Part shown: one piece after another, positions 1,272 to 63,595 of the stretch
How the letters are laid out: each line of letters starts with the position of its first letter
How positions within the stretch are numbered: position 1 is the stretch's first letter
Origin: Rhodoferax sp.
Lineage (GTDB): Bacteria; Pseudomonadota; Gammaproteobacteria; Burkholderiales; Burkholderiaceae_C
Assembly (NCBI RefSeq): GCF_030646845.1
Contig: NZ_JAUSLE010000021.1
Coordinates: 62,001 to 126,000 of the forward strand
Direction: 5' to 3'
DNA: 64,000 nucleotides
The notes under the pieces: generated by a model
The model's database searches: none
What the model was told of the DNA's origin: nothing
Seen by the model: only the letters and a program-made list of their open reading frames with translations
Translations under genes and position numbers: made by a program

Positions 1272-2809
1272 ACACTTCTGACTGGATCAGCCGCAGCGTC
1301 TCCAGACTGCTGCCTGCCGCCGGATTGGGCAAGAAAATGGTTGTAGCCCCCGCCGATAATGCGGAGGTTGCTATTAAGACAATAGCATCTGCCACAGGCA
1401 TGACGGGGCAGGGGCTGCCTGCTGGCAATCTCGCGGCAGCCCCGGTCAGCACCAGCGCCCGTCCCGCCTTGCGATCTACCCGCGAGCGTCTGGCCGGCAC
1501 CTTGCGCCACAAGGAGGAAGCTCTGTCACCGCGGGTGCTGCGTCGCACGTTGACCGAGTTGCAGGCCGTGGTGGACAGCCATGTCAGCGAGGTGGAAGGC
1601 GGACGCCGTGCCCGGGCGGTAGCACAGTGGTACGCACGCGCCACGGTGGAGCGCCGGCGTGACATGTGGCTGCTGATGAGCGAGCAGTTCGTGGCAGATC
1701 CACAAATAGTGAAGCAGGCGCATGCCCAGTTCGCTGCATCCGTCGGCACCCCCGATGAAGCGGCGGCCGAAGTGCAGTACCGCCGCGCAACGGTGTCACC
1801 GCGCCGGCGTTTGCTGCAGCGCTTCAGCGCCTTTCCGGAAGGCATACGTTTCCTGGTGGACATGCGCGCCGAAATGCTGCCTTACCTCAAGTCCGACAAG
1901 CGCTTGCAGGCTCTGGATGTCGAGATGGAATACATGTTCTCCACCTGGTTTGACGTCGGTTTTCTGGACCTGCGTCGCATCAGCTGGGACTCACCCGCCT
2001 CGCTGATCGAGAAGCTCATCAAGTACGAGGCCGTGCACGACATTCGCGGCTGGAGCGATATGAAGAACCGGCTCGACTCCGACCGGCGCTGCTACGGTTT
2101 TTTCCATCCCCGACTGCCGGATGAGCCGCTGATCTTTGTGGAGGTGGCGCTGCTTCATGAACTGGCCCAGGGCATCACGCCACTGCTTGACGAGTCGGCG
2201 GCGGTGCAAGACCTCAGCAAAGCCACGACCGCGGTTTTCTACTCCATCAGCAACACCCAGCCCGGCCTGCGCGGCGTGAGTTTTGGCGACTCGCTGATCA
2301 AGCGCGTGGTCGAATCCCTCAAGGCCGAGTTCCCCCGCCTCAAGGTTTTTGCCACGCTGTCGCCGATCCCGGGCTTTCGCGCCTGGCTGGGCAAGAACGC
2401 CTCGGCCATGCTCGCCAGGCTTGATGACAAGGCCCGCGCCGAGCTCGGGCGCGCTATCGGCGTTGAGCCGGTCGCGGCGGCGCACCTGCTGGGCGCCGCC
2501 GACAAGGCACTGGAGCTCGACGCCAAGTCGCCCGTTCGTCATCTGCTGATGCAATGTGCCGCCCATTACCTGGGTCAGGAGTTCGCGGATGGCAAGCCGC
2601 TGGATGCCGTGGCGCGCTTTCATCTGGGCAACGGCGCGCGGATCGAGCGGCTGAACTGGGGCGGCGACCCGTCGGCCAAAGGTCTCAAGCAGTCTTACGG
2701 GATGATGGTTAATTACCTTTACGATCTCAAGCGGCTGGACAAATACCGGGCCCAGCTGGCGCAAAGCAAAATACCGGTTTCAGGGGACATTGATGACCTG
2801 AAATTGTGA
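1268..2809 (+). CDS. matA: Malonyl-CoA decarboxylase
   Basis: A 513-residue protein of the malonyl-CoA decarboxylase family, which converts malonyl-CoA to acetyl-CoA and CO2. The N-terminal helical region is followed from about residue 200 by the acetyltransferase-like catalytic domain; recognisable segments include HPRLPDEPLIFVEVALL near 280, FYSISNTQPGLRG near 325 and the late RFHLGNGARIERLNW with the family's conserved His. The gene overlaps the GntR gene by 4 bases. The first 60 residues are poorly conserved and contain one copy of the dispersed palindromic element (1344-1387), read in frame. With the downstream synthetase it forms a malonate-to-acetyl-CoA route. Confidence 0.93.
   Translation: MNTSDWISRSVSRLLPAAGLGKKMVVAPADNAEVAIKTIASATGMTGQGLPAGNLAAAPVSTSARPALRSTRERLAGTLRHKEEALSPRVLRRTLTELQAVVDSHVSEVEGGRRARAVAQWYARATVERRRDMWLLMSEQFVADPQIVKQAHAQFAASVGTPDEAAAEVQYRRATVSPRRRLLQRFSAFPEGIRFLVDMRAEMLPYLKSDKRLQALDVEMEYMFSTWFDVGFLDLRRISWDSPASLIEKLIKYEAVHDIRGWSDMKNRLDSDRRCYGFFHPRLPDEPLIFVEVALLHELAQGITPLLDESAAVQDLSKATTAVFYSISNTQPGLRGVSFGDSLIKRVVESLKAEFPRLKVFATLSPIPGFRAWLGKNASAMLARLDDKARAELGRAIGVEPVAAAHLLGAADKALELDAKSPVRHLLMQCAAHYLGQEFADGKPLDAVARFHLGNGARIERLNWGGDPSAKGLKQSYGMMVNYLYDLKRLDKYRAQLAQSKIPVSGDIDDLKL
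1344..1387 (+). repeat. Dispersed palindromic element, copy 1 (inside malonyl-CoA decarboxylase)
   Basis: Starts TAGCCCCCG and ends with a GCTAT...ATAGC inverted repeat. It is read in frame by the host gene and encodes residues close to APADNAEVAIKTIA in the variable N-terminal region. Confidence 0.75.
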
Positions 2810-2849
2810 CGGGCAGTTTTCGCATTTAGCAAAATAACAGGAGACAAAC

Positions 2850-3845
2850 ATGACTTTGACACACTCGATACACAACACCCGGCGCGACGTTTTGCGCCTT
2901 GCCGCCGCCGCCATCGCCAGCAGCCCGCTGCTGGGCCAGGCACAGTCGGCCTGGCCAGCCAAGCCGGTGACCGTGGTGGTTCCCTTCCCGGCGGGCGGCG
3001 GCACCGACGCGTTTGCCCGACCGCTGTCGGCGCAGTTCGCCAAATTGACGGGCAAGCAACTCATCATCGACAACCGGGGCGGCGCTGGCGGCACCGTGGG
3101 TGCCAGTATTGCCGCCAAGGCCCAGCCGGATGGCTACACGCTGTTTATGGGGGCGGTGCATCACGCCATCGCGCCTTCGATGTACCCCAGGCTGGACTAC
3201 GACCTCGAAAAAGACTTTGTGCCGCTGGCCCTGCTGGCCAACGTGCCGCAGGTGCTGGTAGTTAACCCCAGGTTGGTGCCGGGCGACTTCAAGGCGTTTC
3301 TGGCGCAGGTGCGCAAGAATCCGGGTCGCATGAACTACGGCTCGGCCGGCAGCGGCACCTCCCACCATCTGGCGGGGGAGCTGTTCAAGATGCAGACGCA
3401 AACGTTCATCACCCACATTCCCTATCGCGGCGCCGGCCCGGCTTTGAGCGATTTGATCGCGGGCAATGTGGACATGATGTTTGACGGCCTGGGCTCATCG
3501 GCTGCGCACATCAAGGGGGGTCGTATCAAGGCACTCATGGTGTCGGGCGCCAAGCGCAACCCGGCGTTCCCCGACGTGCCTTGCGCGGCCGAGCTCGGCT
3601 TGCCGGACTACACCGTTTCCACCTGGTATGGCCTGTGGGCGCCCAAAGGGACGCCGGCCGATGTGCAGGCCCGCATCGTGGAGGACATGCGCCGTGCCGC
3701 AGCCACGGACGAACTCAAAGCCAGCTGGGCCAGCAATGGCGCGGAGTTTGGCAACCTGACACCGCCGCAGTTTGGCAGTTTTGTCAGCGCTGAGATCAAG
3801 CGCTGGGCAACGGTGGTCAAGGCCTCTGGCGCCAAGCTGGACTGA
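2850..3845 (+). CDS. Bug-family periplasmic solute receptor (TctC-like)
   Basis: A 331-residue tripartite tricarboxylate transporter receptor of the Bug family, abundant in Burkholderiales. A twin-arginine-like leader (RRDVLRLAAAAIAS, residues 11-24) ends near AQSAWP. The mature protein opens with the family signature KPVTVVVPFPAGGGTD and shows the GGAGGTVGA and PDGYTL loops that hold a carboxylate ligand. It sits between malonyl-CoA decarboxylase and malonyl-CoA synthetase, so malonate or a related dicarboxylate is the likely ligand; that is inference from context. No TctA/TctB membrane partners are present in the window, a common state for Bug receptors. Confidence 0.88.
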   Translation: MTLTHSIHNTRRDVLRLAAAAIASSPLLGQAQSAWPAKPVTVVVPFPAGGGTDAFARPLSAQFAKLTGKQLIIDNRGGAGGTVGASIAAKAQPDGYTLFMGAVHHAIAPSMYPRLDYDLEKDFVPLALLANVPQVLVVNPRLVPGDFKAFLAQVRKNPGRMNYGSAGSGTSHHLAGELFKMQTQTFITHIPYRGAGPALSDLIAGNVDMMFDGLGSSAAHIKGGRIKALMVSGAKRNPAFPDVPCAAELGLPDYTVSTWYGLWAPKGTPADVQARIVEDMRRAAATDELKASWASNGAEFGNLTPPQFGSFVSAEIKRWATVVKASGAKLD

Positions 3846-3861
3846 GCGCGCCGGTTCAGCC

Positions 3862-4659
3862 ATGGGTGTGATCCAGTATGAGCAGCAGGCCGGTGTGGCG
3901 CGGGTCACCATCAGCTTCCCCGCCCGCTTCAATGCGATGTCGCGCATCATGTGGCGTGAGCTGCGCTCTGTCTTTGAGAGCGTGCAAAACAACACAGAGG
4001 TGCGCTGTGTCGTGATCGGCGGGGAGGGCGGTAATTTTTGTTCTGGCGGCGATATCTCTGAATACGCTGATTTCCGGTTTCAGGAGTCGACCCTGCGCGA
4101 CTTTCACGAGAACGATGTCTGGGGCGGTTTGAAGGCGATGCTGGCGTGCGATGTGCCCATTGTGGCGAAAATTGACGGCAACTGCATGGGGGCCGGGGTT
4201 GAGATTGCCAGTTGCTGCGATATCCGCCTGGCAGGCGTTGGCGCCCGGTTTGGCGCGCCCATTGCCCGGCTGGGCTTTCCGATGGCGCCGCGCGAGGCCG
4301 CATTGGTGGCGCGTGAAGTCGGCCTGGTCACGGCGCGCCAGATGCTGCTGGAAGCGGCGATCTTCAGCGCGACCGACATGAAGGCTGCCGGCTTCCTCAG
4401 CCGCGTGCTGGCGGACGATCAGCTGGGCGCCGAGGCACAGGCCACCGCATTGCGGATCGCGGGCCTGGCACCCCAGGCGGCCAGACTCAACAAGCAAACT
4501 CTTCGAGCACTAATTAGCCCTCTAGCCCCCGTCCATATTGCGCGGGATGCTATTGATGTAGTAGCAAGTGACATCGGCGAGGCCTATGGGTACGCTGACA
4601 GCGTCGAGCACCGGGAAGGTGTCCAGGCCTTTCTGGAAAAGAGAAAGCCCGCGTTCTAG
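3862..4659 (+). CDS. Enoyl-CoA hydratase/isomerase family protein
   Basis: A 265-residue crotonase-fold protein. The oxyanion-hole segments are visible: GNFCSGGDISEYADF and KIDGNCMGAGVEIASCCDIRLA, followed by the GAPIARLGFPMAP strand and the C-terminal EHREGVQAFLEKRKP. The ATG at 3862 starts directly in the fold; an open frame upstream overlaps the receptor gene and is not needed. The exact CoA substrate cannot be read from sequence; the place between the two malonate enzymes suggests a CoA ester linked to malonate use. Near the C-terminus it contains an in-frame copy of the dispersed palindromic element (4523-4566). Confidence 0.88.
   Translation: MGVIQYEQQAGVARVTISFPARFNAMSRIMWRELRSVFESVQNNTEVRCVVIGGEGGNFCSGGDISEYADFRFQESTLRDFHENDVWGGLKAMLACDVPIVAKIDGNCMGAGVEIASCCDIRLAGVGARFGAPIARLGFPMAPREAALVAREVGLVTARQMLLEAAIFSATDMKAAGFLSRVLADDQLGAEAQATALRIAGLAPQAARLNKQTLRALISPLAPVHIARDAIDVVASDIGEAYGYADSVEHREGVQAFLEKRKPAF
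4523..4566 (+). repeat. Dispersed palindromic element, copy 2 (inside enoyl-CoA hydratase gene)
   Basis: Starts TAGCCCCCGT and continues through ATATTGCGC to a degenerate GCTAT...TAGCA arm. Read in frame it encodes APVHIARDAIDVVA, just before the conserved YADSVEHREG segment. Confidence 0.85.
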
Positions 4660-4720
4660 CGCCCTGAGGCTCTTGCCTCCTATCCCCTCGAAATGACCCA
4701 CCCCAAGCCCTCATACTGAC

Positions 4721-6265
4721 ATGCGCACACAGAACACCTCCAGCCAAAGCAACGGCAATCTCTTCGCAGCACTTCGCGCTGCCTTTCCGCAGGATCTTGA
4801 CGCGGTAGCGGTTGAAACCGACAGCGGTCTGTTTTACTCCTGGCGCGACTTGGAGCGTGCCACCGCCATGATGGCGAACTTGCTCGATTCACTGGACCTG
4901 CCTGCAGGCTCCCGCATTGCCGTGCAAGTCGAAAAATCGGTCGAGGCCATGGTGCTGTATCTGGCGACCCTGCGTGCCGGCCTTGTATTTTTGCCACTCA
5001 ACACGGCGTATCAAAGTGCCGAGATCGAGTACTTCATCGGCAATGCCGAACCCGCCGTCGTGGTGTGCACGGCCAGGAATTTTGGCTGGGTCAGCAAGAT
5101 TGCGTTCAAGGCAGGCACGCAATGCGTGTTCACGCTCAATGATGACCGCACCGGTTCCCTGCTGGAGCGGGCCGCGCACTGTTCAGACCAGCACGTGGTG
5201 GCCCTCCGCCAGGCAGATGACCTGGCCGCCATTTTGTACACCAGCGGCACCACGGGCCGCTCCAAAGGCGCCATGCTGACCCACGGCAACATGCTGAGCA
5301 ACGCACTGGTGCTGAAAGACTACTGGGGCTGGCAGGCGGATGATGTGCTGATTCATGCGCTTCCGATCTTTCACGTGCACGGTCTCTTTGTGGCCATACA
5401 CGGGGCGCTGCTCAACGGCAGCAAGATGATCTGGTTGTCCAAATTCGACCCGAAGCTGGTGATCCAGAAGATGCCCGAGGCCACTGTGTTCATGGGCGTG
5501 CCCACGCTCTATGTGCGCCTGCTGGCGGAGCCCGGCTTGACCAGAGAGGCCGCGCGTCACATGCGGCTCTTTATTGCCGGGTCGGCACCCTTGCTGATCG
5601 AGACCTTCAATGAATGGCAGTCCAGAACCGGCCATACCATTCTGGAGCGTTACGGCATGAGCGAGACCGTGATGCTCACGTCCAACCCGTACGACCAGAG
5701 CCAAGGCGAACGCCGGGGTGGCACGGTGGGCTTCCCGCTGCCGGGTGTGAGTCTGCGGGTGCAGGATGAGGATGGGCGTCCCGTGCCAGTGGGAGAGATT
5801 GGCGGCATCCAGGTCAAGGGGCCCAATGTGTTCAAGGGCTACTGGCGTATGCCGGAAAAGACGGCTGAGGAATTCACCCCCGATGGCTACTTCAAAACGG
5901 GTGATGTGGGCAAAATCGACGAGTTGGGTTACGTGACGATCGTGGGCCGCAGCAAAGACCTCATCATCAGCGGCGGCTACAACGTTTATCCCGCCGAAAT
6001 CGAGGCCTGTATCAACGAGTTGCCGGGCGTGGCCGAGAGTGCCGTGGTTGGCATACCCCATGCGGATTTTGGCGAGGTGGGCGTCGCGGTTGTCACGCCG
6101 AAGCCGGGTGCCACCATTGACCCGGGCAAGATCATTGCCAGCCTGAAATCACAGCTGGCCAATTTCAAGGTGCCCAAGCAGTGTTTTGTGGTCGCTGCCT
6201 TGCCGCGTAACACCATGGGCAAGGTTCAGAAAAACATCCTGCGGGCGCAGTACGGCGCAGGTTGA
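4721..6265 (+). CDS. matB: Malonyl-CoA synthetase
   Basis: A 514-residue AMP-forming acyl-CoA ligase. The P-loop motif YTSGTTGRSKGAMLTHGN lies near residues 172-189; ERYGMSET (A5), the YFKTGDVG hinge region and the C-terminal lysine in PRNTMGKVQKN are all present, so the enzyme looks complete. The substrate assignment to malonate rests on similarity to MatB-type ligases and on its operon with malonyl-CoA decarboxylase. It would activate malonate to malonyl-CoA in the cytosol. Its stop is followed by a palindromic element and then the convergent stress-protein gene. Confidence 0.9.
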   Translation: MRTQNTSSQSNGNLFAALRAAFPQDLDAVAVETDSGLFYSWRDLERATAMMANLLDSLDLPAGSRIAVQVEKSVEAMVLYLATLRAGLVFLPLNTAYQSAEIEYFIGNAEPAVVVCTARNFGWVSKIAFKAGTQCVFTLNDDRTGSLLERAAHCSDQHVVALRQADDLAAILYTSGTTGRSKGAMLTHGNMLSNALVLKDYWGWQADDVLIHALPIFHVHGLFVAIHGALLNGSKMIWLSKFDPKLVIQKMPEATVFMGVPTLYVRLLAEPGLTREAARHMRLFIAGSAPLLIETFNEWQSRTGHTILERYGMSETVMLTSNPYDQSQGERRGGTVGFPLPGVSLRVQDEDGRPVPVGEIGGIQVKGPNVFKGYWRMPEKTAEEFTPDGYFKTGDVGKIDELGYVTIVGRSKDLIISGGYNVYPAEIEACINELPGVAESAVVGIPHADFGEVGVAVVTPKPGATIDPGKIIASLKSQLANFKVPKQCFVVAALPRNTMGKVQKNILRAQYGAG

Positions 6266-6271
6266 CTATTT

Positions 6272-6327
6272 GGCAGCTATGAAATTGCTATAGAAATCAT
6301 AGCTGCTGCCGCTTATTTTACGAGGGC
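6272..6327 (-). repeat. Dispersed palindromic element, copy 3, with hairpin between convergent genes
   Basis: The element is in reverse orientation: TGCTAT-AGAAATC-ATAGCT and then a degraded CGAGGGC end (6286-6327). A neighbouring arm makes a larger hairpin, CAGCTATGA (6274-6282) against TCATAGCTG (6297-6305). It sits between the converging stops of matB and the stress-protein gene and could act in transcript ending, but has no clear T-run. Confidence 0.65.
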
Positions 6328-6338
6328 GATGTGCCCAA

Positions 6339-6782
6339 TTAGCGTAGAACCAGAACCGGCACGTGGGAGTGCGTCAGCACCTGTTGGGTTTCGCTACCCA
6401 GCAACAGGCGTTTGATGCCACGGCGACCGTGGGATGCCATCACGATCAGGTCGCATTTGTGTTTTTTCGCGGCGGCAATGATTGCGTCCGACACCAGGTC
6501 TGACTTGACAGTCACGGCCTTGGTTTTGACGCCCTTCGCCAGAGCGGCTTTCTGGACTGCGTCGACGATGGCCTGTCCGTCCTCTGCCCATTGCTTCTCA
6601 ACCCGGCTGACCTCGGCCGCCTGCAAGGCCAAGCCTCCCTCAAAGTAGCTTTGCGGGTAACGCGGAATTACTTTCAGGGCCACCAACTCGGCCCCTGACA
6701 GCGCTGCCAGGCCAATCGCGCTGGCAACCGCTTTCTTGGACAAAGTGGAACCATCGGTGGCCACAAGAATTCTCTGATACAT
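6339..6782 (-). CDS. Universal stress protein, UspA family
   Basis: A 147-residue single-domain Usp protein. It begins MYQRILVATDGS and ends with the ATP-binding type motif MASHGRRGIKRLLLGSETQQVL, giving the G-2x-G-9x-G-S pattern of nucleotide-binding family members. The length is normal. It is divergent from ccoI and shares a 106-base intergenic region holding a good Fnr box centred at 6845.5. Measured for this strand, a -41.5 activation position predicts a transcript start near 6804, with a possible TAAGCT -10 box at 6812-6817, so anaerobic induction is likely. Confidence 0.92.
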   Translation of the reverse strand: MYQRILVATDGSTLSKKAVASAIGLAALSGAELVALKVIPRYPQSYFEGGLALQAAEVSRVEKQWAEDGQAIVDAVQKAALAKGVKTKAVTVKSDLVSDAIIAAAKKHKCDLIVMASHGRRGIKRLLLGSETQQVLTHSHVPVLVLR

Positions 6783-6838
6783 GAATTTGCTCCTGTTGAG
6801 TGAAGGCCTCTAGCTTACTCTGCTCACTCAGCGTTATC

Positions 6839-6852
6839 TTGATTGCCGTCAA
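6839..6852. promoter_or_regulatory. Fnr box between the universal stress protein gene and ccoI
   Basis: TTGAT-TGCC-GTCAA matches the Fnr consensus TTGAT-N4-ATCAA at 9 of 10 positions. Its spacing suits activation of the stress-protein gene on the minus strand. On the plus strand the same spacing would give an almost leaderless ccoI transcript. Confidence 0.8.
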
Positions 6853-6888
6853 GTAAACTGTGCGCATAGCCCGGCACCCTTGGACCTT

Positions 6889-9404: not shown

Positions 9405-9420
9405 GAATTATCAACAAGGG

Positions 9421-9434
9421 TTGACTTGCGTCAA
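9421..9434. promoter_or_regulatory. Fnr box upstream of ccoN
   Basis: TTGAC-TTGC-GTCAA, a symmetric variant of the Fnr site, is centred at 9427.5. A class II position predicts a transcript start near 9469, 23 bases before the ccoN ATG. This fits oxygen-limited induction of the ccoNOQP operon. Confidence 0.8.
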
Positions 9435-9491
9435 ACGGTATCCGGGTTTGCCATAGGAAACTCGATCCAAACAAACTGAGAAGAGGTGAAA

Positions 9492-10934: not shown

Positions 10935-10947
10935 GAAGGAAAATACC

Positions 10948-25276: not shown

Positions 25277-25311
25277 GGCGATGGATTCCATTTTTTTATA
25301 TGGTGAATTGG

Positions 25312-25360
25312 GCTCCAGCCCTCGTTGATAATGCGTATGTAGCTATAAATAAGATAGCAA
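25312..25360 (+). repeat. Dispersed palindromic element, copy 4 (intergenic, before smc)
   Basis: Runs from CTCCAGCCCTCGT through a degenerate ATAATGCG to AGCTATAAATAAGATAGCA. It lies between the DMT permease stop and smc in a 206-base gap with no other visible feature. Confidence 0.75.
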
Positions 25361-25482
25361 AACTACCTCTGCTTCGGGTGCCGGCTCCCCAAGACCCGGC
25401 AAGGTATCATGGCGGGGTGTTTCGCGGGCTGCCCGACAGCCCCTGACCCAGTCAAATCAACTTCAGCTAGCGTCAGCGATCC

Positions 25483-28998: not shown

Positions 28999-32136
<3,138 letters not shown>

Positions 32137-34463: not shown

Positions 34464-34500
34464 ACCCGGCGCGGCGCCAGCGCGATCCCGAGCCCAGTGT

Positions 34501-34547
34501 TGCTATTAATTCAATAGCTGTTCAGGCAATCAATACGGGGGCTAGAG
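34501..34547 (-). repeat. Dispersed palindromic element, copy 6 (between def and glnD)
   Basis: The clearest reverse copy: TGCTATTAATTCAATAGCTG, a spacer, then ATACGGGGGCTAGAG. It lies between the converging stops of def and glnD, a place where a stem-loop could help end both transcripts. Confidence 0.88.
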
Positions 34548-34559
34548 CACTAAAATGCA

Positions 34560-37154
34560 TCAAGCCAGTGCTTCCAGCAACTCCGTCTCAATCTCGATCT
34601 GCGCCCGGTTGTGCTGCAGCTCGGCGCCCTGGATCAAAAAGGTGTCGTCCACGCGCTCACCCAGGGTGGCGATTTTGGCCAGTTGCAGGTTGATGTTGTG
34701 CTTGGCCAGCACCCGCGCCACGCAGTACAGCAAGCCCACCCGGTCACTGGCCGAAATATTGAGCAGCCAGCGCTGGGCTTTTTCATCGGGACGCAGGGTG
34801 ACCCTGGGCGTGATGGGGAAGCTCTTGACCCGGCGCGACACCCGTCCGCGACTCGGCGGCGGCAGCGGCCCGGTCTGGGCAATCGCGCGCGCCAGCTCGC
34901 TCTCCACCATGCTGGTGAGTTCCCGGTAGTGTTCGGGCAAGACCGATGTGGTCACCTGAAATGTGTCCAGCGCATAGCCGTTGTTGGCCGTGTGCACGCG
35001 TGCGTCCAGGATGCTGAAGCCGCCCTGGTCAAAGTAGCCGCAGATGCGCGCGAACAGGTCGCGCTGGTCCGGCGTGTACACCAGCACCTGCAGACCCTCG
35101 CCCACGGGCGACTGGCGGGCCCGCACGATGGACTTGCCGGACCCCATGTGGCGTGAGAGCTGCCGGGTGTGCCAGGCGATGTCGGCCGCGTCGTGGCGCA
35201 TGAAGTAGCCCACGTCCAGCGTATCCCACAACGGCTTGTGGGCCTCAAAGGGCAGGGCATGCAGGGCCAGCATGACCAGCGCCTCGCGCTTGCGGGCCTC
35301 CACCTCGGCATCGGGGTCGGGTGCGCGCCCACCCAGTGAGCGCAAGGTCAGGCGGTAGAGGTCTTCGAGCAGCTTGCCCTTCCAGGCGTTCCAGACCTTC
35401 GGGCTGGTGCCGCGAATATCGGCCACGGTCAGCAGATACAGGGCGGTGAGGTTGCGCTCGTTGCCCACACGTCTGGCAAACGCCTGGATGATGTCCGGGT
35501 CACTGAGGTCGGACTTCTGGGCGATGCGGCTCATCGTCAGGTGCTCGTGCACGATGAACTCGATCAGGCTGGCATCGGAGCGGTCAATGGCGTGCTGTTT
35601 GCAGAACCGCCGTACTTCGGAGGATCCCAGTTCCGAGTGGTCGCCGCCGCGGCCCTTGGCGATGTCGTGAAACAGTGCTGCGACGTACAGGATCCAGGGC
35701 TTGTCCCAGCCCGAGGCCAGCTGCGAACAAAACGGGTATTCGTGGGCGTGCTCGACGATAAAGAAGCGCCGCACATTGCGCAGCACCATCAGGATGTGCT
35801 GGTCCACCGTGTAGACATGAAACAGGTCGTGCTGCATCTGCCCGACGATGCGGCGGAAAACCCACAGGTAGCGCCCCAGCACCGAGGTCTCGTTCATCAG
35901 CCGCATGGCGTGCGTGATGCCGTCGCGCTGCATCAGGATCTGTTTGAAGGTCTCGCGGTTCACCGGGTCACGGCGGAACCCGGCATCCATCAGGTCACGG
36001 GCGTTGTAGAGCGCGCGCAGGGTGCGTGCCGACAAGCCCTTGAGGCCGACCGTGGTCTGGTAGAGCAGAAAGGTTTCCAGAATGGCGTGTGGCTCGCGCT
36101 CGTACAGGTCGTCGCTGGCGACCTCCACCATGCCCGCCTTGTCAAAGAAGCGCGCATTGATCGGCTGAAGCGCGTGCGTGGAGGGGTTGAGCCGCTCCTC
36201 GATGTTGAGCAGCAGAATCTGGTTGAGCTGCGTCACAGCCTTGGCCGCCCAGTAGTAGCGGCGCATCAGGGCTTCGCTGGGTCGCACAAAGGCGCGTTTG
36301 TCCGTAGTGGTCGAAGGCGCCTCATAGCCAAAGGACTTCGCCACGGCGCTTTGCAGGTCAAACACCAGCCGGTCTTCGCGGCGCTGCGCAATCAAATGCA
36401 GCCGCACGCGAATCAGCCGCAGCAGCGCTTCGTTGTGTTTGATCTGTTTGACTTCAAAGGTGGTGGTCAGGCCACCCCTGGCCAGCGCGTCCCAGTTGCC
36501 GCCATAGCCGGCCGCCTTGGCCACCCACAGGATCACCTGCAGATCGCGCAGCCCGCCGGGGGACTCCTTGCAATTGGGCTCCAGCGAATAGGGTGTGTTG
36601 TCGAACTTGGTGTGGCGCTGGCGCAGTTCAAGTGTCTTGGCGACAAAAAACGCCTTGGGGTCGATCGCGGAAAAAAACTGTTTTTCAAATCCGGCAAACA
36701 GCTCGGTGTTGCCTGTGATCAGCCGCGATTCGATCAGCGAGGTCTGGATGGTGACGTCCCGCGCGGCCTCGTTCAGGCACTCGGAGACAGTGCGCACGCT
36801 GGAGCCGATCTCCAGCCCGGTGTCCCAGCAACTGCCAATGAAGCCTTCAATCCGGGCCTTGAGTTGTGGATCGTTGTCCGGCGACTGGTCGTCCGGCAAC
36901 AGCACCAGCACATCCACATCGGAATAGGGAAACAACTCACCGCGCCCGAAGCCACCGACGGCCGCCAGCGCAAAGGGGCGCTCAAACCCGGCGCGCTGCC
37001 ACAGTGTCTTCAGCGTGGCATCCGCCAGCGCCGACAGCTTGCCCAGCGCGGCGCGCACCCCCCGGGTGGATGAACTGCCGCCGGACGCCAGCGACTGCAG
37101 CAGCGCTGCCTTCTCGGCACGGTAGTGCGTGCGCAGCGCCTGGAGATCCGTCAT
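34560..37154 (-). CDS. glnD: [Protein-PII] uridylyltransferase / uridylyl-removing enzyme
   Basis: An 864-residue nitrogen-status sensor. The nucleotidyltransferase domain carries [20 protein letters not shown] (near residue 70-90); the HD domain for deuridylylation carries [21 protein letters not shown] (near 460); two ACT domains that bind glutamine end the protein (about 690-770 and 795-864). The full length is typical. It modifies PII proteins GlnB/GlnK. It is followed upstream by map on the same strand, 34 bases away. Confidence 0.97.
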
Positions 37155-38168: not shown

Positions 38169-41100
38169 GTGACCCTGCACATCACCCAATTCGAGGGCGG
38201 TAGCGCTCTCAGCAGTTTCCGGATCCAGCAGCTTTTGCCGAGCCTGCAGGCCATTCACGACAAGATCAACGGTGTGGCTGCACGCTTTGTGCATCTGGTG
38301 ACGTCGGACGCAGAGCCGTCCCCGGCCCTCAAGGACCAGTTGGCGGCCTTGCTGACCTATGGCGACCCGTATGCCGGCCCGACAGACGGCCCCCTGATCG
38401 TGGTCACGCCGCGTTTCGGCACGGTGTCGCCCTGGGCTTCCAAGGCGACGGATATTGCCCACAACTGCGGTCTCGCGGTGCGCCGGGTAGAGCGGGTGAT
38501 TGAATACCGCATCTCGCTGAAAAGCGGTTTGCTCAGGCAATCCAGCCTGTCGGAAGCGCAGCTGGGCCAGATTGGCACTTTGCTGCATGACCGCATGACC
38601 GAGAGCGTGATGTTTGACCGCGCTGTTGCGCTCGGCCTGTTCACCGAATTGCATCCGGCGCCCATGGCCCATGTGGATGTTTTGACCGGTGGCAAAGCCG
38701 CGCTGGAAACTGCCAACACCCAGTTTGGACTGGCGCTGGCGGCCGACGAGATCGACTACCTGGTGCAGGCCTTCACCCAGTTGCTGCGCAACCCGACCGA
38801 CGTCGAACTGATGATGTTTGCGCAGGCCAACAGCGAGCACTGCCGCCACAAGATCTTCAACGCCCAGTTCACCATTGACGGCGTGGCGCAAGACAAGAGC
38901 ATGTTCGGCATGATCCGCCACACGCACCAGACGAACCCGCAGCACATGCTGGTGGCGTACTCCGACAACGCGTCGGTGATGGAAGGCGTGCAGGTTGAGA
39001 GGTTTGTAGCGAAATCGGCCTCTGGCCCCCGTGGAATAAGCGCAGGTAGCTATGAGAAACATAGCGAAATCAACCACATTCTGATGAAGGTGGAGACCCA
39101 TAACCACCCGACTGCGATTTCCCCGTTCCCCGGTGCCTCCACCGGCGCGGGCGGCGAAATCCGCGATGAAGGTGCTACCGGGCGCGGCTCCAAGCCCAAG
39201 GCGGGTTTGACCGGGTTCACCGTGTCCACGCTGCGCTTTGATGACGCCGCGACAGGCTACGGCAAGCCGGGCCACATCGCCAGCCCCCTGCAGATCATGA
39301 CCGAGGGCCCGCTGGGTGGCGCAGCCTTCAACAACGAATTTGGCCGTCCCAACTTGCTGGGTTACTTCCGCGAATATGAGCAGAGCTTGACCTACTCGGC
39401 GGCGGACGCTTCGGGAGCGGCTGCGGCCAGGGAAGAGCAGCGCGGCTACCACAAACCCATCATGATCGCCGGCGGCCTGGGCGTGATCGACGCCACACAA
39501 ACTCACAAGATCGAGTTTCCCGCCGGCAGTCTGCTCATCCAGTTGGGGGGACCCGGCATGCGCATTGGCATGGGCGGTAGCGCAGCCAGTTCGATGGCCA
39601 CTGGCGCCAACGCGGCGGAACTTGATTTTGATTCGGTGCAGCGCGGCAACCCCGAGATCGAGCGCCGCGCGCAGGAAGTCATCAACCAGTGCTGGATGCT
39701 GGGCGAGCAAGGCGGCCCTGGCGGCATGGGCAATCCGATCCTGGCGATCCACGACGTGGGCGCGGGCGGTTTGAGCAATGCCTTCCCCGAGCTCACCAAC
39801 GATGCCGGGCGCGGTGCCCGCTTTGATCTGCGCGCCGTGCCGCTGGAAGAATCCGGCATGGCGCCCAAAGAAATCTGGTGCAACGAGAGCCAGGAACGCT
39901 ACGTGCTGGCGATCGCCCCCGAGTCGCTTGAGCTGTTCCAGGCCCTGTGTGAACGCGAGCGTTGCCCGTTTGCCGTGGTGGGTGTGGCGACGGAAGAACG
40001 GCAGCTGGTGCTGGCTGACGCGGACAAGGAATCACCTGTCGACATGCCGATGAACGTGCTGTTGGGCAAGCCGCCCAAGATGCACCGCGATGTGACCACG
40101 GTCACCCGCGGGTTTGCACCGGTTGACCTGACCGGCGTGGACCTGCAAAAAGCGTGTATCGACGTGCTGGCCAGCCCGACGGTGGCGTCCAAGCGTTTTC
40201 TCATCACCATTGGCGACCGCACCGTGGGTGGTTTCAGCCACCGCGACCAGATGGTCGGCCCCTGGCAGGTGCCGGTGGCGGACTGTGCTGTGACGCTGGC
40301 CGACTACAAAGGGTTTGCCGGTGAGGCCATGAGCATGGGCGAACGCACGCCGTTGGCCACGGTGAACGCGCCCGCTTCCGGGCGCATGGCGGTGGCAGAA
40401 AGCATCACCAATTTGTTGGCGGCTCCGATGGAGCTGTCGCGCGTCAAACTGTCGGCCAACTGGATGGCCGCCTGTGGCGAGCCGGGTGAAGACGCCGCAC
40501 TGTACGCCACCGTGAAAGCCGTCGGCCTGGAACTCTGTCCGGCGCTGGGTATCTCCATTCCGGTGGGCAAGGATTCGCTGTCGATGCGCACGCAGTGGAG
40601 GGACGAGGAGGGCGCCAAAATGGTGACCTCGCCGGTCTCCTTGATCGTGACTGCCTTTGCCACGCTGGCTGACGTGCGCGGTACGCTGACGCCACAGCTG
40701 GACGCGACGCAGGACACTACGCTGCTGCTGATCGACCTGGGCCGGGGCCAGAACCGCATGGGCGGCAGCATGCTGGCGCAGACGCTCGGGCAACTCGGCG
40801 ACGAGGTGCCTGATCTGGACCAGCCGCAAGACCTGGTGAACCTGGTCAATGCCGTGAACGCCTTGCGCGCCCAGGGCCAGATCCTGGCCTACCATGACCG
40901 CAGCGACGGCGGCCTGTTTGCCACCGTGTGCGAAATGGCGTTTGCCGGCCATGTCGGCGTGTCGCTCAATGTGGACCTGCTGGTCACAGAAGGCGACGGC
41001 ATCACGGACAGCCGCGCCGATGTGGGCGACAGCAAGAATTGGGCGGGGCAGGTGAGCGGGCGGCGCAGTGAGCTCACGCTCAAAGCCCTGTTCAATGAAG

Positions 41101-42269
41101 AACTGGGCGTGGTGCTGCAGGTGCGCACGGCGCAGCGCAGCGAAGTCATGCAGACCCTGCGCGAGCATGGCCTGAGCAAACACAGCCACGTCATTGGCAA
41201 GACCCGCCCGGTGGCCTCGAGCATCCAGGCCGGTGTGGGTGAAGTCCAGGTCTGGCGCGATGCCAAAGCCGTGTTCAGCGCCAGACTGTCGGATCTGCAC
41301 CAGGTCTGGGACAGCACCAGCTGGAAGATCTGCAAAGTGCGTGACAACCCCGCCTGCGCCGATGCCGAGCATGCGGCGGCGGGCGAGCCCACGGATCCCG
41401 GCATGCATCTTCATTTGGCATCAAATCAGCCTCCAGTCCCCGTGGAATATGCGCAGGCCGCTACTAAATCGATAGCGAGTCCGGCAAGCCCCGCGCTCAT
41501 GCTGTCGCGTCCCAGAGTCGCGGTGCTGCGCGAGCAGGGCGTCAACTCGCATGTGGAGATGGCCTACGCCTTTACCGAGGCTGGTTTTGACGCGTTTGAC
41601 GTGCACATGACCGACCTGCAGAGTGGCCGCGCCAATCTGGCCGACTTCAAGGGCGTCGTCGCTTGCGGTGGCTTTAGCTACGGCGACACGCTGGGCGCCG
41701 GCATTGGCTGGGCGCGCTCCATCACGTTCAATCCCGGTCTGGCCGACCAGTTCAAGGCCTTCTTTGGGCGCGCGGATACCTTTAGCCTGGGCGTGTGCAA
41801 CGGCTGCCAGATGTTTGCCGAGCTGGCCGACATCATTCCCGGCGCGCAGGACTGGCCACGCTTCACCACCAACCAGAGCGAACGCTTCGAGGCCCGGTTA
41901 AGCATGGTCGAAGTGCTGGAGTCGCCGTCGCTGTTCTTCAAGGGCATGGCCGGCCACCGCCTGCCGATTGCCGTCGCGCATGGCGAGGGCTTTGCCAACT
42001 TCAAGTACCGGGGTAACGCCGACAAGGCCATTGCCGCCATGCGCTTCACCGACAACTTTGGTGCCGCGACCGAGGCCTACCCGTTCAACCCGAACGGCAG
42101 TCCCGGCGGTTTGACGGCAGTGACGACGGCGGACGGCCGCTTCACCGCCATGATGCCGCACCCCGAGCGCGTGTTCCGCAACATCCAGATGAGCTGGACC
42201 AGCGGCGACCCGTCGGCCTTCAGCCCGTGGATGCAGTTGTGGGAAAACGCCCGCAGGTGGGTGGGCTGA
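38169..42269 (+). CDS. purL: Phosphoribosylformylglycinamidine synthase
   Basis: A 1366-residue, single-chain PurL for the fourth step of purine synthesis. Visible are the N-terminal domain, [12 protein letters not shown], the ATP/FGAR-binding repeats ([17 protein letters not shown]) and the C-terminal glutaminase with nucleophile GVCNGCQMF and His in PHPERVF. The GTG at 38169 gives the usual [10 protein letters not shown] start; an ATG at 38109 would add 20 weakly conserved residues. Two copies of the dispersed palindromic element are read in frame: one before [12 protein letters not shown] (39021-39067) and one in the linker before the glutaminase domain (41431-41477). Confidence 0.96.
39021..39067 (+). 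repeat. Dispersed palindromic element, copy 7 (inside purL, first)
   Basis: Reads TCTGGCCCCCGTGGAATAAG, then GCGCAGGTAGCTAT and ATAGCGA. It is read in a frame different from copies 1, 2, 5 and 8 and encodes residues around [16 protein letters not shown], where the protein is several residues longer than E. coli PurL. Confidence 0.85.
41431..41477 (+). repeat. Dispersed palindromic element, copy 8 (inside purL, second)
   Basis: Reads CTCCAGTCCCCGTGGAATAT, then GCGCAGGCCGCTACTAAATC and GATAGCGA. It encodes [15 protein letters not shown] in the linker just before the glutaminase domain, which is about a dozen residues longer than in E. coli. Confidence 0.85.
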
Positions 42270-42334
42270 TCAGGGTAATCCCCCCGATAAAGCAAGGGTG
42301 TGAGAAGTAGAATTTTTTGGAAAAGAAGTTCTAC

Positions 42335-42601
42335 ATGAAGAAATCAAGATTTACTGACAGCCAAATCATGGATGCGCTCAAGCGCGTTGAAGCGGGCTTG
42401 GCCGTGCCCGAGGTCTGCCGCGAGTTGGGTGTCAGCACCGTCACCTTTTACTAATGGCGTGCCAAATTCGGCGGCATGGACACTTCACTGATGTCGCGCA
42501 TGAAGGAGCTCGAAGAAGAGAACCGGCGGCTCAAAAAGCTCTACATTGAGGAAAAGCTCAAGGCCGAAATTGTTGCCGAGGCCCCTGCAAAACAGTGGTG
42601 A
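42335..42601 (+). pseudogene. IS3-family OrfA, interrupted by a stop codon
   Basis: Would encode an 88-residue helix-turn-helix protein starting MKKSRFTDSQIMDALKRVE and ending in a leucine-zipper-like region (KELEEENRRLKKLY). Codon 40 is TAA (42452-42454) where the second IS copy has AAA (Lys) before WRA.FGGMDTS. The rest of the frame is intact. Confidence 0.9.
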
Positions 42602-55771: not shown

Positions 55772-55844
55772 TCGGACCGGGTGGGGCCTGCCTGCCGGGC
55801 TGTGACCCAAGCCAGGCTGTCATGGGGACAAAGCCCGACGCAGT

Positions 55845-56456: not shown

Positions 56457-56694
56457 GGTGCGTGTCCTCGTAAAGAGCAGATTACTCCACTTTTTCAGAA
56501 AGTGATATCCGTGACGCCTATGTTGCTGCACGAGCCGACAAGCCAGCGTCGTCGAACTCCGTCTCTTGACGTAGGACAAATGGAACAACTGCGGTTTTCA
56601 CGCGCCTGTCCACGCCACGGGCACGTGTGCAAACCCACGGCCGCATGATTTTTGTCGCCCCAGACCGGTTCGCGGGCAGCGCTGTCAAGGGTGA

Positions 56695-59852: not shown

Positions 59853-61456
59853 GGGCCTTCGTCCTGCAACAACTTGCCGGGGTTCATGATTCTTTCTGGA
59901 TCGAAGTGGCGGCACAGCTCAGTCAGCGTGGCCATGCCGAGCGGTCCTTTCTCGTCGGCCAGGTGCGCCGCGTGGTCACGCCCGACGCCGTGCTGGTGGC
60001 TCACCGTACCGCCGTGGGCAGCTATTGTTGCGGCCACTGCCGTTTTGAGCCGCTGCCAGCGCTCGAAGTTCGGCGCAAAGCCGCCCGGCGCCGTGGCCCA
60101 GACAAACTGCGAATAAATGCTGCTGCCCTGCGGGTACAGGTGCGACAGATGGGTGAAGGCATGTACCCGTTCGCCGTATTGCGCAAACACATCGCGCGCC
60201 GCCTGTTCCATCGCCAGCATCAGGTGCTTGACCTGGGGCCAGTCGACGGCGGTCTCGATGGTGTCGGCCGAGTAGCCCAGCTCCCACAAGGTGTTGCGCA
60301 GATAGGGACCCTTGAAGCGGTTGGCCGCCCACTTGCTGCCCATGGCGGGTCCGATGTAGACACTGCCATGCTTGGCCAATCCCCGCCGGGCTTCACGCAA
60401 GGCGTGGCGGGCGGTGCGCTTGTCTGCGGTCACGCCCAGCATCAGCATGCATTTGCCGTCACCACAGCCGCGCCAGGTCAGATAGCGCTGCAGCCAGCCA
60501 ATCAGGCGCGCGTGGCCGGCCAGCGTGAGGTTGGTTTCGGTCTCGATCCCGTTGGACAGGCGCAGCATGCTCAGGGGCAGTTTGCGCTGCACCAGCTCGC
60601 GCACCGCGGACTCGGCGGCGTCCCAGCTGGGGAAGAACAGGGCGTGAAAGCTTTCGTGCTCAGGCAGGAATGACACCCGTACCGTCGCCTCGGTCAGAAT
60701 GCCGAAGCGCCCCTCCGAGCCCATCACCAGTTCGCGCAAGTCCGGCCCGGCGCTGGCGGCCGGCACGGTCGGGAGGGTGAGTGTGCCGACCGGCGACTCC
60801 AGCCGGCCGCCCGCAAACAATTGCTCGATGCGCCCATAGCGCAGCGACTGCTGCCCGCTGGAGCGCGTCACCACCCAGCCACCCACGGTCGAGTACTCAA
60901 ACGACTGCGGAAAATGCCCCAGCGTGTAGCCCTGCGCGCGCAACTGCGCCTCCACCAGCGGCCCTGGCGTGCCGGCGCCGAAGGTCGCCAACTGGCTTGG
61001 CTTGTCCAGGTGCAGCAGGCGGTTGAGGCGGCTTAAGCTGATCGACAGGATGGGCCGCTGGCTGATGGGGCAGTCCAGGTGCCCGGCGACACTGGTGCCA
61101 CCGGCAAACGGGATCACGATCCAGTTACGCTCGTGCGCCAGGTCCAGCAGCTCACGCACCTGCTCAGTGGATTCGGGAAAAGCCACGCCGTCGGGCACCG
61201 GGGGCAGGGCGCCAAAGCGCTTGCGGATCCAGTCCGCAAAGCTTTCGCCCATGGCCATGGCGAAGCGGGTGGCGGCGTCGGTCTGGATCAGTGCATGGGT
61301 CGGCAGGCGCGAAGCAGGGATCTGGGCGAGCAGCGCTTCGCGCGTCGCATCGTGCCCGGGAAGTCCGGGCCCCAGCCGGGCGCTGATCATGGCGCGCGCC
61401 TCGTCGTTCAGACTCATCGAAGTGGCATCATCGCCCCAGCCGTTCCATCGTCGCAT
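59840..61456 (-). CDS. FAD-linked oxidase similar to alkyl-DHAP synthase
   Basis: A 538-residue FAD_binding_4 protein. The pyrophosphate loop is PFAGGTSVAGHL; GHFPQSFEYSTVGGWVVTRS and SGQQSLRYGRIE match the AGPS type, as do RFKGPYLRNTLWELG and the active-site histidines in HQHGVGRDHA. AGPS exchanges the acyl chain of acyl-DHAP for a fatty alcohol in ether-lipid synthesis; many bacterial relatives have no proven reaction. It begins MRRWNGWGDD, a common start in this family. It leads a three-gene operon with GlpD and an FGGY kinase. Confidence 0.85.
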   Translation of the reverse strand: MRRWNGWGDDATSMSLNDEARAMISARLGPGLPGHDATREALLAQIPASRLPTHALIQTDAATRFAMAMGESFADWIRKRFGALPPVPDGVAFPESTEQVRELLDLAHERNWIVIPFAGGTSVAGHLDCPISQRPILSISLSRLNRLLHLDKPSQLATFGAGTPGPLVEAQLRAQGYTLGHFPQSFEYSTVGGWVVTRSSGQQSLRYGRIEQLFAGGRLESPVGTLTLPTVPAASAGPDLRELVMGSEGRFGILTEATVRVSFLPEHESFHALFFPSWDAAESAVRELVQRKLPLSMLRLSNGIETETNLTLAGHARLIGWLQRYLTWRGCGDGKCMLMLGVTADKRTARHALREARRGLAKHGSVYIGPAMGSKWAANRFKGPYLRNTLWELGYSADTIETAVDWPQVKHLMLAMEQAARDVFAQYGERVHAFTHLSHLYPQGSSIYSQFVWATAPGGFAPNFERWQRLKTAVAATIAAHGGTVSHQHGVGRDHAAHLADEKGPLGMATLTELCRHFDPERIMNPGKLLQDEGPWAS

Positions 61457-61510
61457 GGGCTACTCCGTTCAGTCAGTTTGGACGTCAGGCGCGAGAATCT
61501 TTAAGCTATT

Positions 61511-61563
61511 TTAGCCCCCATCCCCCGTCAAATGAGCGTTAACAGCTATCGAAAAAATAGCAA
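61511..61563 (+). repeat. Dispersed palindromic element, copy 9 (upstream of the AGPS-like gene)
   Basis: Starts TTAGCCCCCATCCCCCGTC, with a small insertion, and ends in AACAGCTATCGAAAAAATAG CAA. It lies in the 174-base gap between the AGPS-like start and the ferritin-like stop. Confidence 0.75.
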
Positions 61564-61630
61564 CGCATGAGACCGGGTTCGACCCGCAACCATTCGCCCC
61601 CGGTAACGCTGCCGTCTGTATCCGGCCTAT

Positions 61631-61918
61631 TCACGGATGCGCGATATCTTTCTTGGTGAACAGGTAGTCCTTCAGTTCGCTGGAAAACTTCGGGTCCTTA
61701 CGCCGGATCCACTCCAGCACCATGGCAGCGTGCTCTTTCTCCTCGTCCCGATTGTGTTCAAGGATTGCCTTGAGTTCGATGTCCTTGCATGCATCGGCAC
61801 GCTGGTTGTACCAGTCCACCGCTTCGAGCTCTTCCATCAGGGAAACGATGGCTCTGTGCATGTCGCGCGTTTCGTGGGACAACTCCTCTACGGGCTCGTG
61901 ATATCCAATACTCGACAT
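61631..61918 (-). CDS. EncFtn-like ferritin (encapsulated ferritin family)
   Basis: A 95-residue two-helix ferritin-like protein that closely matches encapsulin-associated EncFtn. By alignment to Rhodospirillum rubrum EncFtn the ferroxidase residues are E30, E60 and H63 (in MEELEAVDWY and RDEEKEHAAM), with E29, E32, W36 and Y37 also kept. EncFtn forms ring decamers and oxidises iron. The protein ends FTKKDIAHP and lacks the C-terminal LTVGSLRR-type signal for loading into encapsulin; no encapsulin gene is seen nearby. I start at the ATG before SSIGYHEP, which has a strong AAAGGA site. Confidence 0.9.
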   Translation of the reverse strand: MSSIGYHEPVEELSHETRDMHRAIVSLMEELEAVDWYNQRADACKDIELKAILEHNRDEEKEHAAMVLEWIRRKDPKFSSELKDYLFTKKDIAHP

Positions 61919-62123
61919 TTTTTTTCCTTTGTGTTGATTGTTTTCGCTGCGGACCGCATTGGCTGCCATGACAAAGGCCGCCATCCGGGCAGCATCAGCA
62001 AGGCGGGCAAGGCCAACTCACCGGGCGCCTCACATAGAGTAACGCAAGCGTCTGGAGAATCCATCGCGCCCGGACTGCGACCCTGCCAGTAACAAGGCGA
62101 GCGTCGACAGGCCACCTGTCGGC

Positions 62124-62660
62124 CTATTTCTCCGGATAGCTGCCCTTGGGATATCCCACGCGAGCCAATGCTTTTTTGACACGGGCATTGAAAGCATCAC
62201 TGACGCTGTCGATGCCCTGGTCCACCACGTTGCTCGCATCGCTGATGCGAACCTTGAGCAGATCGGCGTTGCTGTCGATGGCGCCACGCCCTTGTGACTC
62301 GAACTTCTTGCCGGCCTTCACCAGCGCTTCGAAGGCTTTCTCGCCCTTGGTGCCCGTTGAGGTCGTGACCTTGGCCAGTGCGCCCAGGCCTGCCAGCCAG
62401 ATGGCGCGCTGGGAATCGATCAGCTTCAGTGAGGCGTCCCGTGTCAAATGCACGACGCTGGTGACTTTTCTGCGGCTTCGGGTCGCCACCTGCTTCAAGG
62501 TCGCCGGTGGGGTCTCCGCGGTCGCTTTGGTTTTTGCCACTGCGGCTTTGACCCGGGTTTTGGCAACAGCTGTCTTGGCGACGACGGCCCTGGTTCTTGA
62601 CTTGGCAGCGGCCTTTTTGGCTACTGTTGTGGTTTTCTTTGCAGTGGTTTTTGTCGCCAT
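62124..62660 (-). CDS. Phasin with N-terminal histone-like tail (PHA granule protein)
   Basis: A 178-residue protein. Residues 1-65 are Ala/Lys/Thr-rich repeats (ATKTTAKKTTTVAKKAAAK, then AKTAVAKTRVKAAVAKTK), like the DNA-binding tail of PhaF/AlgP. Residues about 80-178 form a phasin helix bundle with SQRAIWLAGLGALAKVTTST. In PhaF the order is the other way round, phasin first and tail last. The protein should coat polyhydroxyalkanoate granules and may tie them to the nucleoid. Confidence 0.83.
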   Translation of the reverse strand: MATKTTAKKTTTVAKKAAAKSRTRAVVAKTAVAKTRVKAAVAKTKATAETPPATLKQVATRSRRKVTSVVHLTRDASLKLIDSQRAIWLAGLGALAKVTTSTGTKGEKAFEALVKAGKKFESQGRGAIDSNADLLKVRISDASNVVDQGIDSVSDAFNARVKKALARVGYPKGSYPEK

Positions 62661-62827
62661 GAAAAACTCCCTCGATGATGGATGAATCCGGCCAATGAGT
62701 CAGTGCCTGTCAGTGCATGGCCGTGCTGCAGCAACAAGTGTCTCTGCGCCGGTTCAACGATGGCAACCGGGATTGACGCAGTGACATGCGCGGAATTGTT
62801 CCCTGATTAATCGGGTATCGTCAAGCC

Positions 62828-63595
62828 ATGCTGCGCAAGTCCCCCTCTCTTTCTTCATCGCGATTCGAGGCTGTGGACGCCGTGCGTGGCCTGGCCATGG
62901 TGTGGATGACGGCGTTCCACTTCTGTTTTGACCTGAATCACTTTGGTTACTGGCGGCAGGATTTCTACCGTGATCCATTCTGGACCTGGCAGCGCACCCT
63001 GATCCTGAGCCTCTTCCTGTTTTCTGCGGGGGTGGGGCAAGCGGTCGCGGTAGCACAGGGGCAGAGCTGGACCCGTTTTTGGCGTCGCTGGGTGCAGGTG
63101 GCCGGATGTGCGCTGCTGGTGACCCTGGGGTCCTGGCTGATGTACCCGCAGAGTTTTATCTATTTTGGTGTACTGCACGGCATTGCGTTGATGCTGATCA
63201 TCGCGCGCCTGACGGCGCACTGGGGTGCCTGGTTGTGGCTGCTGGGTGCCGCGGCGATCGCTATCAAATTCATAGCTGTCTACGCACTGCATTCGGGGGC
63301 TTCTCTCCAATTTGTGGATGCCTTGAACGGACCCATGCTCAACTGGCTGGGTCTGATTACGCGCAAGCCGATCACCGAAGACTACGTGCCACTGTTGCCC
63401 TGGCTGGGGGTGATGTGGTGGGGTGTAGCGGCAGGGTCCTGGTTGTCGGGTCCGGGTGCCGGGTGCCTGTCATTGAAGCTGCCGGTCGCGTTCAAATCAT
63501 TGGCGAGAATCGGGCGCTGGAGCCTGAGCTACTACGTGCTGCATCAGCCCGTGATGATTGGTGCGTTGATGGCGATTGGCTGGCTCGTCAAATAA
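62828..63595 (+). CDS. DUF1624 (HGSNAT-like) membrane protein
   Basis: A 255-residue membrane protein with about seven helices. The first helix holds RFEAVDAVRGLAMVWMTAFH, the DUF1624 / heparan-alpha-glucosaminide N-acetyltransferase-like signature (Asp, Arg and His kept), and DYVPLLPWLGVMWWG follows. Family members may acylate periplasmic sugars; this one is not characterised. A reverse copy of the dispersed palindromic element is read in frame inside the fifth helix region (63258-63302). It is divergent from the phasin gene. Confidence 0.85.
   Translation: MLRKSPSLSSSRFEAVDAVRGLAMVWMTAFHFCFDLNHFGYWRQDFYRDPFWTWQRTLILSLFLFSAGVGQAVAVAQGQSWTRFWRRWVQVAGCALLVTLGSWLMYPQSFIYFGVLHGIALMLIIARLTAHWGAWLWLLGAAAIAIKFIAVYALHSGASLQFVDALNGPMLNWLGLITRKPITEDYVPLLPWLGVMWWGVAAGSWLSGPGAGCLSLKLPVAFKSLARIGRWSLSYYVLHQPVMIGALMAIGWLVK
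63258..63302 (-). repeat. Dispersed palindromic element, copy 10 (inside the DUF1624 gene)
   Basis: Reverse orientation: CGCTATCAAATTCATAGCTG, a spacer, then ATTCGGGGGCTTCT. The host gene reads it without stops as AIAIKFIAVYALHSGAS, partly within a transmembrane helix. Confidence 0.85.

Follow-up and report, generated by a model that had tools for sequence, protein, structure and literature searches.

A 68-bp motif at fixed sites in Rhodoferax and related genomes: a candidate genome-wide mark

A 64,000-nucleotide stretch of a Rhodoferax sp. contig (NZ_JAUSLE010000021.1, positions 62,001 to 126,000), referred to here as the window, contains ten copies of a sequence in which GCTAT is followed a few bases later by ATAGC. 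Some copies lie between genes and others lie within them, where they are read through as protein. This raises the question of how such a sequence came to sit inside genes and what keeps it there. The original prediction, made from the letters of the window, likened the family to Rickettsia palindromic elements, which are palindromic and are read in frame inside genes. The ten copies are indeed present, with profile scores of 40-73 bits (Table 1). Comparison with related genomes gives a different answer to the question, as most of the genic sites tested have no insert. We consider it very likely that the motif is a genome-wide mark, held in place by a sequence-specific reader.

Layout, abundance and reading frames

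The aligned copies run gap-free across 69 columns with fixed spacing. With the G of GCTAT as reference point, conservation reaches from about -47 to +20, about 68 bp in all and not the roughly 45 bp first proposed. The consensus is roughly TTT-N6-G-NN-AAAT-NN-GCCTCT-AGCCC(C/T)CGT-NN-A-NNN-TGCG-NNAGNA-GCTAT-NAAATTN-ATAGC-AANT. At a threshold of more than 26 bits, a profile scan found 102 copies in 819,473 bases of the Rhodoferax genome to which the window belongs (G000), and none in the reversed sequence. The scanned bases were the window plus loci L061-L100, large parts of contigs C65, C46 and C74, and all of C7. Since the profile was trained on the same 102 copies, the reversed sequence serves as the safeguard. 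Extrapolation from 102 copies in 819 kb gives ~540 copies per 4.35-Mb genome. The short pattern GCTATN7ATAGC occurs at 194 places in the whole genome, versus 4 for the reversed pattern.

The GCTAT and ATAGC arms show no covariation and pair at chance frequency (Fisher p 0.19), so what is maintained is not a palindrome in itself. Beyond three invariant base pairs no conserved fold was found (covariation term -0.03). An RNA element was considered and rejected: no Rfam family reached its gathering score in the window, no fold is conserved, and there is no preference for the sense orientation. In tandem intergenic spacers, 8 copies run along the genes and 14 against them. Inverted doublets were not seen as a unit among 98 spacings, the smallest of which is 147 bp (coefficient of variation 0.91).

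By a simple gene caller, which assigns 87-92% of the sequence as coding, 55 of the 102 cores are wholly genic, 14 are partly genic (12 at 3′ ends and 2 at 5′ ends) and 33 are intergenic. Eight of the 33 intergenic copies fall between convergent genes, which account for 8% of intergenic bases. Genic copies are read in a single open frame for each orientation, sense frame 0 in 30 of the 55 and antisense frame 1 in 13. Host genes identified by profile include, among others, ligA, purL, mutL, dapE and the gene for L3 glutamine methyltransferase. The first description, of a repeated family that lies partly within genes and is read through there, is thus borne out.

Orthologous sites with and without the motif

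The ligA gene carries the motif in some genomes and lacks it in others. We compared 80 LigA orthologues from named genomes, the closest relatives sharing ligA being Rhodoferax. The motif scores at least 20 bits at the same codons in 24 of them (25 of 81 with the window included), and 56 fall below. All 56 motif-less orthologues align gap-free at the site and have the same length. This split of 25 and 56 comes from profile scoring and alignments. It is independent of a codon comparison (Ala-319 encoded by GCT in 210 of 210 motif pairs versus 500 of 1,329) that we discarded as circular, the groups having been chosen by motif score, and loosely, since at some loci the score belonged to a different copy. 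A ligA tree was also set aside; it showed 12 label changes (shuffled mean 18), its labels missed the carriers L118, L120, L130 and L142, and it supports only a "patchy" distribution. Measured against its NCBIfam profile, LigA has only 6 residues more, and MutL, where G000 has two copies, only 4 more than its own family profile.

Genic sites on contig C74 were compared with the motif-poor Rhodoferax genomes G003 and G006, and 9 of 12 differ in length by no more than 3 bp. When all sites are taken together, such small changes are found in 45% of 55 comparisons with G003 and G006, versus 86% of 209 controls. In this test 234 elements were entered and 55 site-by-genome comparisons had both flanks, with orthologous sites of different motif-rich genomes counted separately. 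The excess of length differences falls at intergenic and loop sites, while genic sites are mostly in place. Both the purL linker that holds copy 8 and loops in dapE (by up to 17 residues) are longer in motif carriers, and are also longer than in outside genera. The original prediction had named, as evidence against its own reading, motif-less orthologues coding for the same residues at all sites. This is partly the case, at ligA and at most of the C74 genic sites. The length differences that tell the other way are taken up with the competing explanations below.

Where motif-rich genomes share a site, they usually share the motif. In G010, whose flanks are 73-81% identical, it is present at all 8 spanned C74 sites. 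In the reverse comparison the motif is present in G000 at 13 of the 14 distinct G010 sites that were spanned and at 7 of 8 such sites from G032, which indicates that turnover exists and is slow. With motif-rich partners, which were picked by genome and not by motif presence at the site, 44 of 46 pairs keep at least 24 bits; the exceptions, G008 and G026, both concern purL copy 8. Identity in these pairs rises from 0.545 in uninformative columns to 0.79-0.84 in informative ones, with flanks at 0.80. With motif-poor partners a single pair of 22 attains 20 bits, and identity stays level at 0.61-0.70 across the columns. The motif columns are thus specifically conserved in motif-rich genomes, and this conservation is lost in motif-poor ones.

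The motif also has dialects. G000 and G032 have AGCCC(C/T)CGT (with TGCG further on in G000), and G010 has AGCGCTTGT with AAGCGC. In leave-one-out scoring, 97% of 102 G000 copies and 96% of 45 G010 copies fall on the side of their own dialect. The same is true of orthologous pairs at 11 sites (11/11 for G000 and 10/11 for G010), in a comparison of two lineages in which the partner was required to score at least 15 bits on the G010 profile. The biggest shifts replace C by G at -22 and C by T at -19, so plain base-composition drift does not account for all of the dialect change. Old sites were respelled, whereas a mobile family would carry a new spelling to new places.

Presence of the motif varies sharply between close relatives. 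Matches to GCTATN7ATAGC number 14-181 in 19 of the 35 other Rhodoferax genomes and 0-9 in the remaining 16 (controls 0-5). No excess was found in 24 genomes of other families. A family-wide search with a longer pattern found at least 10 matches in 39 of 200 genomes (31 of 141 genera), a level at which the control, never above 8, did not arrive; in genus g96, one species has 152 matches and another has 0. A few copies survive in motif-poor genomes (1 in 512 kb of G003, 2 in 354 kb of G006, and none in reversed sequence), and these resemble remnants of a motif-rich past. Outside the chromosome the motif is rare. It occurs in 2 of 72,556 records of a plasmid collection, in a phage collection as one partial match in an unrelated phage record, and in a virus collection as the strict pattern in 4 contigs, a count of motif matches irrespective of prophage status.

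Near ligA the motif was found in named Rhodoferax, Polaromonas and Acidovorax metagenome-assembled genomes; no motif match was seen at the Ramlibacter and Variovorax ligA loci. The original prediction mentioned similar repeats in Comamonadaceae genomes, and related genera do carry the motif. One contig labelled Akkermansia muciniphila (L172, CALPVM020000137.1) carries a Comamonadaceae-like ligA and is probably a contaminated or mislabelled metagenome-assembled genome.

What may hold the motif in place

Over-representation, a rigid 68-bp layout, conservation at orthologous sites, presence or absence by genome, concerted respelling and near-absence from plasmids and phages are the observations to be explained. 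A motif that is kept in place, with conserved columns, all-or-none by genome, with dialects and chromosomal, calls for a sequence-specific reader acting in trans, and we infer that a single such reader keeps it. The best-known process producing such a pattern is uptake-biased transformation. We propose the DNA uptake machinery as the most likely, though putative, reader, a suggestion to which we would give somewhat less than an even chance. The reader would recognise the motif as double-stranded DNA. The motif would be built and kept mainly through substitutions and small indels at tolerant sites, with no jumping. Uptake and recombination would favour fragments that bear the mark, and molecular drive would spread it. 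If the reader were lost or altered, all sites would decay or switch dialect together.

Sequence-specific self-recognition in transformation has been described for Pasteurellaceae and Neisseriaceae, and the mark proposed here would spread as their uptake sequences do. The uptake signal sequences (USS) of Pasteurellaceae, like the Rhodoferax motif, are present in hundreds to thousands of copies and are mostly genic (65% for USS). That USS arose by substitution and not by insertion was shown with the test applied above to motif-poor genomes, which for USS gave gaps in 24% of alignments (PMC1626085). They consist of a core and flanking AT-rich segments on a 31-bp scale (PMC7811141). They differ from the Rhodoferax motif in length (about 31 bp versus 68), in number (1,465-2,206 copies, versus about 540 here in a genome over twice as large) and in sequence, which is unrelated, and the Rhodoferax motif shows more length differences. 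The DNA uptake sequences (DUS) of Neisseriaceae share with it species-specific spellings of one motif and a location in permissive parts of core genes (PMC3630211). They are 10-12-mers, however, and the family of their receptor (Pfam ComP_DUS) does not track the Rhodoferax motif.

Fragments of the motif may have been seen before. In a survey of paired motifs, two pairs are entered as potential novel motifs with no role assigned: GCTTAT(N)5AAGCG, with 114 copies in Acidovorax ebreus, and ATAGCT(N)22CAAAAG, with 125 in Polaromonas naphthalenivorans. The largest number of motif pairs in any genome, 140, is given there for Rhodoferax ferrireducens T118 (PMC5217627). The left block of the copy in an Acidovorax metagenome-assembled genome (AGCGCTTAT...TAAGCGC) fits the Acidovorax ebreus pair, and to judge by their letters both pairs look like pieces of the 68-bp motif. 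They differ in being fragments and in having been chosen as intergenic (94% and 81%), and the consulted portion of that paper gives no long motif, orthologue comparison, dialects or mechanism for them (PMC5217627). The remark in the original prediction that no formal description exists was therefore nearly right, apart from the apparent fragment listed there. In the open-licence literature searched, we found no description of the long motif, its genic placement or its dialects.

Candidate genes in trans were sought across 36 Rhodoferax genomes, and none of the three families ComEC, ComP_DUS and Y1_Tnp tracks the motif. Y1_Tnp, the family of the REP-associated tyrosine transposases (RAYT), is found in 35 of 36. 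The protein scores 79.5 bits against NCBIfam REP_Tyr_transpos, just below the cut-off of 80. A single RAYT-type protein of ~235 residues (G000:C10:19919-20242; L233:9593-10360, minus strand) is encoded ahead of the same downstream gene in L233 and in 13 further neighbourhoods, L234-L246. The gene has a flanking repeat of its own, GTCCCCAATTA ... TAATTGGAATCTGACCCCAATTA, which is present in motif-poor species too.

Several findings weigh against an uptake mark. ComEC is encoded in 35 of 36 Rhodoferax regardless of motif count, and the only genome without a hit, G023, is motif-rich. ComP_DUS is found in 30 of 36, and the six misses (G008, G011, G013, G020, G025 and G031), some of which are incomplete assemblies, are all motif-rich. 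Neither USS nor DUS comes near the motif in length, and at ~540 copies in 4.35 Mb it is sparser than either. Intergenic DNA is enriched about threefold, holding 33 of 102 copies in about 10% of the sequence. Motif-poor genomes are shorter by at least 10 bp in 44% of the 55 comparisons versus 6% of the 209 controls, and three distinct sites cluster near a length difference of -54 bp. Finally, 8 of 10 motif-rich neighbourhoods and 0 of 4 motif-poor ones have a motif copy directly behind the RAYT stop codon; the chance of a copy at one given gene end is ~0.7% by density, and higher if 3′ ends are preferred.

The copy next to RAYT keeps alive the idea of an ancient mobile element of the type of repetitive extragenic palindromic (REP) sequences, moved by a Y1 transposase in trans, whose old insertions, some of them genic, are now conserved or occasionally re-copied. 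Like REPs and REPINs the motif is an abundant, short, partly palindromic repeat with a RAYT gene and an adjoining copy, and the longer loops and spacers in carriers (purL copy 8, dapE, and the cluster near 54 bp) would be expected of insertions. We nevertheless regard this as unlikely. REPs are extragenic by definition (PMC12306157, PMC3116915), whereas more than half of the cores here are genic. Inverted doublets are lacking, and the RAYT gene is present in motif-poor genomes as well. Its own flanks carry a different repeat (GTCCCC ... AATTGGAATCTGACCCCAATTA), in motif-poor genomes too. Insertion also leaves the gap-free sites and the joint respelling of fixed sites unexplained. A selfish insert like the Rickettsia palindromic elements, adding in-frame peptides to proteins, is highly improbable, having been largely refuted by the gap-free orthologues. 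The palindromic part, the one open frame per orientation, the in-frame reading through genes and the longer loops at some sites do fit it. The motif is shorter than those elements, though, shows no insertion at the majority of genic sites tested, and has neither arm covariation nor a fold conserved beyond three base pairs that would support a hairpin.

A binding site for a chromosome-organising or nucleoid protein, where the sites or their number matter to the cell and are lost once the protein is lost, is possible but rather unlikely. It accounts for maintenance in place and for dialects, which would follow the protein. It also fits a long motif of several conserved blocks resembling a target in double-stranded DNA, as well as the absence from plasmids and phages, and it does not require competence genes. 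The sites matS, KOPS and Noc are analogues, although the Rhodoferax motif is much more abundant. In G000, 71 of 102 copies run along the leading strand (p = 9e-5 against 0.5; 0.016 against 57.6%, the share of G000 gene bases on that strand), as a chromosome-organising site might. The bias does not hold as a general rule: the best 150 copies in G010 divide 78 to 72, with no clear switch of orientation along the chromosome, and one G032 stretch runs against GC skew. The spacing is random-like, and whole lineages lack the motif, even within one genus.

On the most far-reaching reading, self-DNA uptake marks would gain an independent third family in this motif, or the motif would be an equivalent mark across the genome. 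It would be 68 bp long, present within a single family in 31 of the 141 genera sampled, switched on or off between sister species, and would have changed dialect at hundreds of fixed sites, including those in ligA, mutL, purL and dapE. We put this forward tentatively. If true, housekeeping proteins would be partly shaped by a mark at the DNA level, with molecular drive moulding the peptides of essential enzymes. Pairs of species with and without the motif, and two dialects at shared sites, would then let comparison find the reader. Should the reader prove to be something other than the uptake machinery, a mark of such size and density on the chromosome would be at least equally surprising. In either case, read-through repeats inside genes are not necessarily insertions.

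The ten copies in the window

Table 1. Copies of the motif in the window, with their profile scores
Copy	Position	Strand	Setting	Score (bits)
1	1323..1390	+	N-terminal end of, or just upstream of, malonyl-CoA decarboxylase gene	55
2	4502..4569	+	inside enoyl-CoA hydratase gene (Pfam ECH_1), sense frame 0	55
3	6283..6350	-	intergenic, behind AMP-binding enzyme gene (neighbour by Pfam)	57
4	25295..25362	+	intergenic, upstream of SMC gene (Pfam SMC_N)	73
5	30860..30927	+	inside ligA (NCBIfam LigA), sense frame 0, no insertion at the site	55
6	34498..34565	-	intergenic between convergent genes, behind GlnD-type gene	62
7	39002..39069	+	inside purL, different sense frame from copy 8	65
8	41413..41480	+	inside purL, length-variable interdomain linker, sense frame 0	67
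9	61498..61565	+	intergenic	63
10	63256..63323	-	inside HGSNAT-type acetyltransferase gene (Pfam HGSNAT_cat), antisense	40 (weakest)

Six of the copies had been placed inside genes. Five of these are well supported (copies 2, 5, 7, 8 and 10), and copy 1 is doubtful. It corresponds to residues 26-40 of an open reading frame in which the malonyl-CoA decarboxylase domains start only at residue 141, and the simple gene caller puts it in the intergenic space just upstream of the gene. The like peptides reported for copies 1, 2, 5 and 8 were confirmed as quoted. The glycan island of the window has no copy, as had been remarked, but this is uninformative alone, with 1.26 copies expected there and P(0) = 0.28.

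The copies differ in how their sites compare with other genomes. Motif-poor G006 is shorter by 27 bp at copy 2 and by 54 bp at copy 6. The motif is retained in G010 at copies 6 and 10. At copy 7 the length of the purL loop is the same whether or not the Rhodoferax compared carry the motif. The linker that holds copy 8 has other contents in motif-less relatives, VIASEARQS in L104 and VIAGDTPKNS repeats in G012 (L203), as if this interdomain linker were a general landing place for repeats. Behind purL, a 127-bp stretch (window 42274-42400) recurs at G000:C74:115789-115915 on the minus strand with 94% identity, and copies with 75-88% identity are found in other Rhodoferax genomes.

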